From positions 1 to 64,000 of the forward strand of contig CALKND010000004.1 in assembly GCA_938092065.1 (NCBI GenBank): a stretch of 64,000 nucleotides of DNA. Direction: 5' to 3'. Shown here in pieces: positions 27,023-33,561 of the stretch. Source of the DNA: an uncultured Rhodospirillales bacterium (GTDB taxonomy: Bacteria; Pseudomonadota; Alphaproteobacteria; Rhodospirillales; JABHCV01). The notes below the pieces were generated by a model that was given only the letters and a program-made list of their open reading frames with translations, ran no database searches and had not been told where the DNA came from. A program made the translations under genes and the position numbers. Every line of letters starts with the position of its first letter. Positions within the stretch are counted from its first letter, which is position 1.

Positions 27023-28528
27023 GTGAAACTACCTTTTAACTTACCAAAGTTTGGAAAGAAAGAAGTTGATGAAGACGATGATGAAGAGGACTCTGATTTT
27101 GATCCCTCTGAGTTGGAAGGCGCTCCAGCTGTTGGCCTGGATGACGAGAATATCGAAGATGAGACTGTATTGGATGACGTCTTGGATGAGCCCACCGATG
27201 AAGATATGGGCGAAGCTTTGCCTTCTGAAGCAGTTTCATTAGAAATTCAAAGTGAAGAGAGCCTGGATGCTCCAGAAGGCCAGGATGGTCCCATAGGTGT
27301 AGACAAGAGCTCCTTAGGGGAAGCAACGGCCGAAGACAACGAAGAACTAAAATTTAGTGATGATGACAACGAGAATAGTAGTTACGACGAAGACGAGGAA
27401 GAAGACGAGGAAGAAGACGAAGCAAAACCAAAGAAAAAACTATTTTTGGTTGGCGGCGGGGCTACTGCAGTCCTCATTCTAATTGGTGGAACATTTTGGT
27501 ACTCCACACTTGGTGGCACTAATGATGAATCTTCTAATGAAAATTCCAAAATTCCCAAAGTGGCAATGGATATTGCTCCTAAAACAAATCCTAAGGTTGG
27601 CGGTCTGAACGCACTAATTGGTGGATCTGCTGGTGCGGGTGCCTCTCCCACCAAGTTGTTAGTGCCAGTTATATCGCCTATGGCTTTCGCATCTCTTGCC
27701 CCGCCCAAAGTCACAGATAGCCCACTAGGCGAGTCTAATGACCCGGCTTTAAGTGAAGAAAGCCCACAAGGCCTCTTACCTATAATAGCCAAGGATGGGC
27801 GTCAGGCATGGCAAGTGTACGCAAAGCCTTTTGTAAACGAGTCTGCCAATCGCCGTGTCTCTATTGTTGTTATGGGCCTCGGGCAAAGTATGTCTGCAAC
27901 TAATGCGGCAATTAATCTATTGCCGGGAAATGTGACGCTTGCCTTCGACCCTTATGCACCCAATTTATCGGATTGGATGAGAAAAGCACGCGCGGCAGGT
28001 CACGAAGTTATGCTAATGGTGCCATTGGAGCCTACCACCTTTCCATATGATGATCCAGGGCCACTGGGATTAATGACTGTCAATGCACTGGAGGAAAATC
28101 GCCTTCGACTAGAAAATATTTTAAGCCTAATGACTGGATACATTGGAGTAATGACGGTAATGGGCTCAAAGTTCAACACTTCCGATGAACATTTGAGATC
28201 ATTTCTTGATGTGATCAAAAAGCGTGGGTTAATGTTCCTTGAAGGGGCTGTCAATCCTAATACTCTTGCCCCTAAAATCGCGAAAGAGTTAGGTTTGCCC
28301 TATGCAGTTACCAATATTGTTCTTGATTTAATTCCGACTAAATCTGAAATAGATGTCCGGCTGGCTGAATTGGAAAAGGTTCTTGCAAAAAAACCCGCAG
28401 CGGTCGCCATAGCGGGGGGTTATCCGTCCTCTATTGAGCGTATTGCTGCCTGGACAACTGATCTTCAGGCAAAAAACCTAGTCCTTGCTCCCTTGTCGGC
28501 GCTCGCCAACAAACAGTCCCTGGAATGA
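27023..28528 (+). CDS. Divergent polysaccharide deacetylase family protein with long acidic cytoplasmic N-terminus
   Basis: C-terminal RRVSIVVMGLGQSMSATNAAINLLPGNVTLAFDPYAPNLSDWMRKARAAGHEVMLMVPLEP; acidic N-terminal ~140 aa, then one TM helix. Confidence 0.88.
   Translation: MKLPFNLPKFGKKEVDEDDDEEDSDFDPSELEGAPAVGLDDENIEDETVLDDVLDEPTDEDMGEALPSEAVSLEIQSEESLDAPEGQDGPIGVDKSSLGEATAEDNEELKFSDDDNENSSYDEDEEEDEEEDEAKPKKKLFLVGGGATAVLILIGGTFWYSTLGGTNDESSNENSKIPKVAMDIAPKTNPKVGGLNALIGGSAGAGASPTKLLVPVISPMAFASLAPPKVTDSPLGESNDPALSEESPQGLLPIIAKDGRQAWQVYAKPFVNESANRRVSIVVMGLGQSMSATNAAINLLPGNVTLAFDPYAPNLSDWMRKARAAGHEVMLMVPLEPTTFPYDDPGPLGLMTVNALEENRLRLENILSLMTGYIGVMTVMGSKFNTSDEHLRSFLDVIKKRGLMFLEGAVNPNTLAPKIAKELGLPYAVTNIVLDLIPTKSEIDVRLAELEKVLAKKPAAVAIAGGYPSSIERIAAWTTDLQAKNLVLAPLSALANKQSLE
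27386..27422 (+). repeat. Short in-frame tandem repeat (12-nt GACGAGGAAGAA unit, coding D-E-E-E)
   Basis: cgaagacgaggaagaagacgaggaagaagacgaag read directly. Confidence 0.75.
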
Positions 28529-29010
28529 TAAAAATACATAAGGATAAATTGCCTTACCGCCCCTGTGTAGGAGCTATGCTAGTCAATGCTAGGGGAGGGG
28601 TTTTTGTCGCCAAACGGATCGATGGTATGGCTGATTACTGGCAGATGCCCCAGGGTGGCATTGATGAGGGAGAAGATCCTGCAAAGGCGGTAATGCGTGA
28701 ATTGCAGGAGGAAACCGGCACAAGTAAAGCTGAAATCATTGCAAGAAGTGAGCATTGGCGGACTTACGATTTGCCTGATGATCTAATTGGTAAATTATGG
28801 GGTGGAAAGTACCGTGGTCAACGGCAAAAGTGGTTCGCTCTGAAGTTTTTAGGGGAAGACAGTGACATTAATATAGAAGCCCATGAAATTCCAGAGTTTA
28901 GCGATTGGAAATGGGTTGAAATAGATGAATTGGTTAATCTAGTAGTTCCCTTTAAACACGCTCTGTATGGGGATATAGTTATGGAACTGAAACCACTTAT
29001 CGGCTCATAA
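28525..29010 (+). CDS. rppH: RNA pyrophosphohydrolase (Nudix)
   Basis: YRPCVGAMLVN, Nudix box GGIDEGEDPAKAVMRELQEETG. Confidence 0.95.
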   Translation: MIKIHKDKLPYRPCVGAMLVNARGGVFVAKRIDGMADYWQMPQGGIDEGEDPAKAVMRELQEETGTSKAEIIARSEHWRTYDLPDDLIGKLWGGKYRGQRQKWFALKFLGEDSDINIEAHEIPEFSDWKWVEIDELVNLVVPFKHALYGDIVMELKPLIGS

Positions 29011-30813: not shown

Positions 30814-31239
30814 ATGACCGTTAGTCAGATAGGACGTACTCAGTTGCGCAGTATCGCCGATGCTCGTGTGGCCATTCGTCACGTTTTTGTTCGTAACCTA
30901 GTTCTAAATTGCTCCATCGGGATTCATCAGCACGAACGTTTAGCCGTGCAGAGAATTCGTGTTAATCTTGATTTAGCCGTCCGTGAAGGTGAGACCAATG
31001 GTCAACTTGATGACGAGCTTGCCAACGTTGTCTGCTATGAAGGTTTAACAAAGGGTTTACGCGCTCTTGCCTCACGAGAACACGTAAACCTTGTTGAAAC
31101 TTTGGCCGAAGACGTCGCTGCCATGTGTTTGGGTGATGATAGAGTCTGCTCTGCTAGGGTTTGTATTGAGAAGCTTGATATTGTTAATGATGCAGAAAGT
31201 GTTGGTGTAGAGATTGAAAGATTCAATCCAGAACTTTGA
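30814..31239 (+). CDS. folB: Dihydroneopterin aldolase
   Basis: VFVRNLVLNCSIGIHQHERLAVQRIRVNLDL. Confidence 0.9.
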   Translation: MTVSQIGRTQLRSIADARVAIRHVFVRNLVLNCSIGIHQHERLAVQRIRVNLDLAVREGETNGQLDDELANVVCYEGLTKGLRALASREHVNLVETLAEDVAAMCLGDDRVCSARVCIEKLDIVNDAESVGVEIERFNPEL

Positions 31240-31538
31240 CAGTCATATTCATGCTCTTTACTCTTCCTCAATAACTCGTAAATCTTCTTTAAAATGCCTA
31301 GAAATTCATGCAAGCCATTGCAATAAATAGATTAATCAAATCTTGGTAAGTAGAGTTGTGCACAGGTATTGAAAACGTAATATTTCAATATGTTAAATAA
31401 AAACGGAAATTTCTTTTAAAGACGTAATCCTACTTGAATTAATTTTATCAATATAAACAAGTACTTATATAAATGCTCATTTTTTAGGCGAAGTGATTAT
31501 TTCCTTGTGATTTCCCACACTTTGCTTATCAAGGGTGG

Positions 31539-31573
31539 ATATCCACAGTGTTATCCACAGTAATGGTGGATAG
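31539..31573. promoter_or_regulatory. DnaA-box cluster upstream of uvrC
   Basis: Exact TTATCCACA at 31551-31559, ATATCCACA (one mismatch) at 31539-31547, weaker inverted GGTGGATAT (31534-31542) and GGTGGATAG (31565-31573). Confidence 0.6.
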
Positions 31574-31656
31574 TTCTGTTAAAATCAGAAATAAAACGGT
31601 AATTATTTATAATCGTGTGCGTTGACGTGGAGTAAGGTTTCGTCCAAATAGCACGT

Positions 31657-33561
31657 ATGGCAAAAAAAAACTCGATTACAGAAACCTCAAAAGCTTTTAA
31701 AAAGGGAGGAGCGCCCAAAGTTGGGGGTGTGCTTGTTATTGAAGCCTACTTGAGAACTTTGGAGTCCACGCCGGGTGTTTATCGCATGATCAATAGCAGT
31801 GGTGATGTTCTGTATGTTGGCAAGGCGAAAAATTTGAAAAAAAGAGTCGGCAGTTATACCAACCTGAATCGCCAGCCGACCCGATTGCAGCGGATGATTT
31901 TCGAAACACAGAGCATGGAATTCGTCACAACCCATACGGAAGCCGAGGCCTTGCTTTTGGAAGCCAATTTAATTAAGCGTTATAAACCACGTTACAATAT
32001 CCTGCTTCGCGACGATAAATCCTTCCCAAAAATCCTGCTGACCAGCGGCCACCAATATCCCCAGGTATTGAAACACCGTGGAGTGGAAAATCGTGAGGGA
32101 AGTTATTTTGGCCCTTTTGCCTCTGTTTGGGCAGTCAATGAGACATTAACTATCCTGCAAAGAGCATTTCTTTTGCGCACCTGTTCAGACAGCGTTTTTA
32201 GAAATCGTACCCGGCCCTGCTTGCTTTTTCAGATCAAACGCTGTTCGGCACCCTGTGTGGCCCGTATCAATGAGGCCGGATACGGCGAGTTGGTATCAGA
32301 AGCGCGGACTTTCTTAACCGGTGAAAGTCAGAAAATTCAGCGGGGCCTGGCAAAGCGTATGCAGGAAGCCAGTGACAATATGGAGTACGAGATTGCTGCC
32401 AACTATCGGGATCGCATTCGTGCGCTAACCCAAGTACAGGCTCATCAGGGCATTAATTTTTCTAGTATTGGCGAGGCCGACGTTATTGCCGCCTACCAAG
32501 CGGGTGGGCATACCTGTGTAGAGATCTTTTTCTTTCGTGATGGCCGTAATTTTGGTAACCGGGCCTATTATCCCTCGCATGCTGACTATGAGGATGCGCC
32601 TCATGTACTGGAAGCTTTCATAGGTCAGTTTTATTCCGGCAAGGAAGCACCCAAGGCCTTAATATTATCTCACATCTTGCCCAATCAATCGCTCATGGTT
32701 GATGCCTTGAGTGTCACTGCTGGTCGTAAGGTTGATATTTCTTGCCCTAAACGTGGTGATAAGATGAACCTTGTAGATCATGCTTTAAACAATGCCCGGG
32801 AGGCTTTGGGAAGGCGGCTTTCAGAGAGCGCCTCCCAACGCCGCTTGCTTGAAAGCCTTTCTGATGTTCTGGACTTGGCATCAGCCCCAGAAAGGATCGA
32901 AGTATACGATAACAGTCATATTTCTGGCACGAAGGCAATTGGTGGCATGATTGTCGCTGGCCCTGAAGGCATGTTGAAAAAAGCCTATCGCAAGTTCACC
33001 ATCAAAAATTTGGAGATGGTTCCAGGTGATGATTATGCCATGATGACAGAAGTCTTGACCCGGCGTTTTTCTCGAGCTCTGAGAGAAGACCCAGAGCGTG
33101 CTCTTGGCCAATGGCCAGATCTGGTATTGATTGATGGTGGTGCTGGACAATTAAGTGTTACGCTAAAGGTGTTCGAGAAATTGGGAGTAGAAGATGTAGC
33201 TGTTGCAGCTATCTCAAAGGGGCCGGACCGTAATGCTGGGCGTGAGCGTATATTTCTGCCCGGCCGTGACCCAATTTCTTTGCCTGCTCGGGATCCGGTG
33301 TTGTACTTTCTTCAACGTCTGCGGGATGAAGCACACCGTTTTGCTATTGGCTTTCACCGCCAAAAAAGATCAAAGGCTTTGTCTAAATCCAGTCTTGACG
33401 GGGTTCCAGGAATAGGGCCAAAACGAAAAAAGGCTCTACTGCATCATTTTGGATCTGCTGCTGCTGTTGAAGGATGCGGGTTGACTGACTTGGAGGCGGT
33501 AGAAGGTGTTAGTGGAGCAATGGCTAAGAAAATTTATGACTGGTTCCACACAGACGGTTAA
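31657..33561 (+). CDS. uvrC: Excinuclease ABC subunit C
   Basis: GIY-YIG domain (GVYRMINSSGDVLYVGKAKNLKKRVGSY), UVR motif, C-terminal HhH (GVPGIGPKRKKALLHHFGS). Confidence 0.97.
   Translation: MAKKNSITETSKAFKKGGAPKVGGVLVIEAYLRTLESTPGVYRMINSSGDVLYVGKAKNLKKRVGSYTNLNRQPTRLQRMIFETQSMEFVTTHTEAEALLLEANLIKRYKPRYNILLRDDKSFPKILLTSGHQYPQVLKHRGVENREGSYFGPFASVWAVNETLTILQRAFLLRTCSDSVFRNRTRPCLLFQIKRCSAPCVARINEAGYGELVSEARTFLTGESQKIQRGLAKRMQEASDNMEYEIAANYRDRIRALTQVQAHQGINFSSIGEADVIAAYQAGGHTCVEIFFFRDGRNFGNRAYYPSHADYEDAPHVLEAFIGQFYSGKEAPKALILSHILPNQSLMVDALSVTAGRKVDISCPKRGDKMNLVDHALNNAREALGRRLSESASQRRLLESLSDVLDLASAPERIEVYDNSHISGTKAIGGMIVAGPEGMLKKAYRKFTIKNLEMVPGDDYAMMTEVLTRRFSRALREDPERALGQWPDLVLIDGGAGQLSVTLKVFEKLGVEDVAVAAISKGPDRNAGRERIFLPGRDPISLPARDPVLYFLQRLRDEAHRFAIGFHRQKRSKALSKSSLDGVPGIGPKRKKALLHHFGSAAAVEGCGLTDLEAVEGVSGAMAKKIYDWFHTDG

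Follow-up and report, generated by a model that had tools for sequence, protein, structure and literature searches.

A putative DARS-type site for DnaA reactivation in the gap upstream of uvrC in Alphaproteobacteria

The gap upstream of uvrC in an uncultured Rhodospirillales bacterium probably holds a DnaA-reactivating sequence (DARS) like DARS1 and DARS2 of E. coli, that is, an ADP-to-ATP exchange site for DnaA, as suggested by the arrangement of its sequence motifs. We infer that DnaA and IHF bind to the cassette found there and that it is a place of nucleotide exchange with a part in cell-cycle timing. If this is true, Alphaproteobacteria have a route to regenerate ATP-DnaA. The conversion of ADP-DnaA to ATP-DnaA has been little explored outside gamma-proteobacteria, and the DARS literature that we found deals with E. 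coli and its relatives. A 2014 paper restricts the DARS2 core to E. coli and related gamma-proteobacteria, and a passage of a review, citing the 2009 discovery paper, places DARS-like sequences in many proteobacterial species (PMC10380432). Our literature search, with the species list of the 2009 discovery paper left aside, found no report of a DARS for Alphaproteobacteria and no paper joining DARS2 with uvrC.

Results and Discussion

The folB–uvrC gap contains three DnaA boxes in a fixed arrangement

The window, by which we mean the whole 64,000-nucleotide stretch of DNA analysed, contains a non-coding gap of 417 bp (31240–31656) between the plus-strand genes folB and uvrC. Its GC content is 0.32 vs 0.45 for the window, in agreement with the earlier note, which had described an AT-rich non-coding stretch of this length before uvrC. 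Neither a structured RNA or tRNA nor a sigma-70-like promoter or terminator was found in the 417 bp. The features of the locus are collected in Table 1, with offsets measured from DnaA box II.

Table 1. Features of the folB–uvrC locus in the window
Feature	Position	Strand	Remarks
folB (FolB-domain gene), 5' neighbour of the cassette	30814–31239	+	TIGR00526 above cut-off
Outer motif TGCAAGCCATTGCAA	31309–31323	+	About −243 from box II; conservation limited to close relatives and some families
Distal DnaA box TTGTGCACA	31356–31364	+	−195 from box II here
IHF-type site AAACAAGTACTTA, predicted	31455–31467	+	One mismatch to WATCAANNNNTTR; −96 from box II
Fis-like palindrome GCTCATTTTTTAGGC	31475–31489	+	No mismatch to the Fis consensus GNNYANNNNNTRNNC; −76 from box II
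Core DnaA box III, ATATCCACA	31539–31547	+	Consensus in relatives TTTTCAACA
Core DnaA box II, TTATCCACA	31551–31559	+	Separated from box III by 3 bp
Core DnaA box I, CTATCCACC	31565–31573	−	Head-to-head with box II; 5-bp spacer GTAAT
uvrC, 3' neighbour of the cassette	31657–33561	+	TIGR00194, E 1.6e-163

The exact and the one-mismatch DnaA boxes that the earlier note had reported were confirmed at their positions (TTATCCACA at 31551–31559 and ATATCCACA at 31539–31547), and its two inverted copies correspond to ATATCCACC (31534–31542, overlapping) and CTATCCACC (31565–31573). The core (31539–31573) consists of boxes III and II in tandem with a 3-bp gap, followed after 5 bp by the inverted box I, which is the layout of a DARS core. 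The comparison of box numbers with the background, proposed earlier as a check, gave no excess, since single DnaA boxes were not enriched either in the window (21 with at most one mismatch vs 17.8 expected) or genome-wide (17 exact boxes vs 23 for a reversed control pattern). Therefore, only the arrangement of the boxes counts, and by its arrangement and its conservation the cluster is real and above chance. A sequence-only core model, which was trained on 33 alphaproteobacterial cores with the window's own core as 1 of the 33 training rows, gave one strong match in the genome of the window (E 1.3e-9; the next, 1.24).

The core shares its geometry with E. coli DARS1 and DARS2

The core of the window reads ATATCCACA GTG TTATCCACA GTAAT GGTGGATAG. 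DARS1, on the minus strand of the bioD–uvrB gap, reads TAATACACA TGG TTATCCACA GGAAT AGTGGATAA, and DARS2, between rppH and mutH, reads TTCTTCACA ACT CTATCCACA GAAAA GGTGAATAA, with the same gaps (3 bp and 5 bp) and box orientations in all three. DARS1 is nearly identical over 28 bp to the cores of relatives (ACA-TGG-TTATCCACA-GGAAT-AGTGGATA vs ACA-TGG-TTATCCACA-GGAAT-CGTGGATA), many of which also have the GGAAT spacer. We scanned ~81 kb of E. coli DNA with DARS1, DARS2, oriC, datA, and dnaA, using the alphaproteobacterial core model. As a result, DARS1 scored 27.7 bits, far above the rest of this DNA, and DARS2, whose core sequence is less similar to the alphaproteobacterial cores than that of DARS1, scored 11.3 bits in a match that ran through box I. 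By bits alone, the partial matches to datA (16.5 bits) and oriC (13.6 bits) exceeded that to DARS2, but both covered only the tandem III–II half, and box I is hence the distinguishing feature. The opposed boxes I and II have been described as characteristic of DARS and indispensable to it, box III having an assisting role (PMC10380432; PMC8682772).

Predicted IHF sites, Fis-like palindromes, and distal DnaA boxes lie at nearly constant distances from the core

The core is present in ~35 Rhodospirillales, with the IHF, Fis-like, and distal sites at nearly fixed distances. In 29 of 35 Rhodospirillales, the IHF consensus WATCAANNNNTTR occurred with at most one mismatch at −96 to −99. Within 320 bp upstream, these 35 sequences had 12 perfect matches in total, each at −97 or −98. 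Of the 35, 27 had the Fis consensus GNNYANNNNNTRNNC at −76 to −79. In relatives, the distal box TTGTGCACA occupied positions from about −197 to −203, in most cases −197 to −200. Furthermore, among 38 loci from across the class, which were mostly picked by the core alone and not by flanking sites, 26 had the IHF consensus at −97 to −100 and 27 the palindrome at −77 to −79. For the IHF counts of both sets, fewer than one match was expected from the remaining upstream DNA. This recurrence across the class is the least circular evidence for the cassette as one unit.

Both ihfA and ihfB are present in the genome of the window, and the predicted IHF site at about −97 in the alphaproteobacterial cassette can be compared with an IHF-like site at −99 of DARS2 (opposite strand, one mismatch). 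DARS1, in contrast, is without a convincing IHF site near −100. DARS2 also has a perfect consensus DnaA box at −197, close to the position of the distal box. Box V of DARS2 is a perfect consensus box by the essential Fis sites and provides negative feedback by ATP-DnaA (PMC8682772). The −197 box of DARS2 is presumably this box V, as judged from position and sequence rather than from a published coordinate, and the distal box TTGTGCACA, lying outside the IHF site, may be its counterpart by position. With regard to Fis, the cassette differs from DARS2. The essential Fis sites of DARS2 lie beyond IHF, whereas the Fis-consensus palindrome of the window lies between IHF and the core. The ~91% complete assembly also yielded no stand-alone Fis gene; its good HTH_8 matches occurred only in ORFs of 459–490 aa, a context known from NtrC-type regulators. 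The palindrome would need another protein in place of Fis, possibly one with a Fis-type domain.

If the cassette works as a DARS, ADP-bound DnaA would occupy boxes III, II, and I, and the head-to-head II/I pair would make two AAA+ domains face each other, with the result that ADP is expelled; apo-DnaA would then leave and bind ATP. IHF would bend the DNA ~100 bp upstream and, together with a protein on the Fis-like palindrome, switch the site on. The distal box (about −197), once bound by ATP-DnaA, could turn the site off again in the manner of box V of E. coli DARS2.

The cassette recurs in much of the class, mostly beside uvrC

Searches with UvrC covered 60 relatives, 59 of which gave a match, and yielded 24 named loci, mostly from metagenome-assembled genomes of Rhodospirillales. 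The common order in relatives was folB–gap–uvrC, with ~400–500 bp between the two genes, and alignment of the gaps revealed sharp conserved islands (AGTTGTGCACA; TCAA....TTA; TGC..A.TTTTT..GCA; T.TCAACA...TTATCCACA....TCGTGGATAG) in otherwise unconserved DNA. Thus, the boxes proved to be conserved in orthologous uvrC upstream regions, which had been named earlier as a check. Two relatives of one family (f16) lacked both the DnaA cassette and folB adjoining uvrC. The core model matched 248 of the 386 alphaproteobacterial genomes searched, usually with uvrC adjacent; the other 138 gave no match at the threshold used. Among the 29 best-scoring loci of the class, 21 had uvrC by the core, 2 more had folB, and 6 had neither. 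One core away from uvrC (L141) kept the IHF-like site and the palindrome; its neighbours, read from sequence, are pdxJ-like and hisZ-like genes.

The association with uvrC raises the alternative that the boxes are mainly a DnaA-responsive operator that ties excision repair to replication, in the manner of E. coli uvrB. DARS1 adjoins uvrB as the alphaproteobacterial cassette adjoins uvrC, both being genes of nucleotide excision repair, and it overlaps the uvrBp3 promoter, with DnaA repressing uvrB (PMC6015884). The DARS1 core lies on the strand opposite uvrB, whereas box II of the window reads in the direction of uvrC. This alternative, which could coexist with a DARS role as it does at uvrB, is nevertheless unlikely to be the main function. 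The distance from the core to uvrC ranges from ~100 to 480 bp across relatives, in place of a fixed position to a promoter or start, whereas the internal spacing is nearly constant; the cassette therefore looks autonomous rather than like a uvrC operator. The gap is also without a sigma-70-like promoter, there is little conservation from the core to the uvrC start in the aligned gaps of relatives, and cores were found away from uvrC too.

A datA-like site, namely, an IHF-dependent cluster promoting the hydrolysis of DnaA-bound ATP, or a site of DnaA titration, is less probable still. datA, which is defined by boxes 2 and 3 at a fixed spacing around an IHF site, likewise lies off the origin and needs two boxes and IHF (PMC4585315). 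In the cassette, compared with datA by the order of its sites, DnaA boxes flank the IHF-like site. However, datA matched the core model without the head-to-head box I, the II/I pair being the DARS hallmark (PMC10380432), and the strong boxes are few for a titration site. A DARS, our preferred reading, was absent from the options listed in the earlier note, which were a replication origin, DnaA titration, and DnaA control of uvrC; the latter two are retained as possible side effects of the cassette.

The origin of replication is likely upstream of hemE

The remaining option, that the gap is the oriC of this chromosome, can be dismissed with near certainty despite its clustered DnaA boxes and AT-richness, because there is no GC-skew sign change at ~31.2–31.7 kb, where the cumulative skew of the window keeps rising with no turning point. 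The alphaproteobacterial origin usually adjoins hemE. In the genome of the window, hemE is located on another contig (C5:79443–80447, minus strand), and on the side of its start the skew changes from about −0.04/−0.07 to +0.06/+0.08, next to a stretch of 21–30% GC with seven DnaA-like boxes (at most one mismatch) within ~400 bp. Since the skew flips there beside these boxes, the origin is likely the segment upstream of hemE at G000:C5:80449–81000 (L210). In a complete single-contig relative (G049), the skew flips at 420–600 kb, an interval that includes hemE (433 kb) but not uvrC (1.21 Mb), and this too argues against the gap as the origin. The skew change was also around hemE in another relative (G020), and the skew of Defluviicoccus (G060) was too irregular for use. 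The earlier note was hence right to doubt the origin that it had listed.

Significance and further observations

A conserved and well-delimited cassette in most sampled alphaproteobacterial genomes is directly testable. On a broader view, to which we would give even chances, DARS goes back far in the proteobacteria and has kept a ~200-bp architecture (core, DNA-bending sites, and distal feedback box); in Alphaproteobacteria it would lie mostly in front of uvrC, under the control of IHF and of a Fis-family or other Fis-replacing protein.

In a sample of the phylum, the core model had matches in 107 of 199 genomes. DARS-like cores in other proteobacteria (L185, L196, L203, and L189) were beside priA-like or recG-like genes, as judged by eye from translations. 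The pattern of DnaA-reactivating cores by repair and restart genes (E. coli uvrB and mutH, uvrC here, and priA and recG in other proteobacteria) is strengthened.

For 12 genomes whose core is linked to uvrC, the distance of uvrC from hemE was 0.16–0.59 of a replichore (median, ~0.39), with sizes rounded and hemE as the origin proxy. E. coli DARS2 lies, from its coordinates, at ~0.41. This likeness in position is suggestive only, and gene order alone could explain it.

The gene rppH adjoins DARS2 in E. coli; in the window (28525–29010), it lies ~2.5 kb upstream of the cassette. Among the Rhodospirillales loci with enough flank, it was ~2.3–2.8 kb upstream in the window and ten others (L039–L054 and L062). 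The presence of rppH near both the cassette and DARS2 is possibly an old linkage, or a coincidence.
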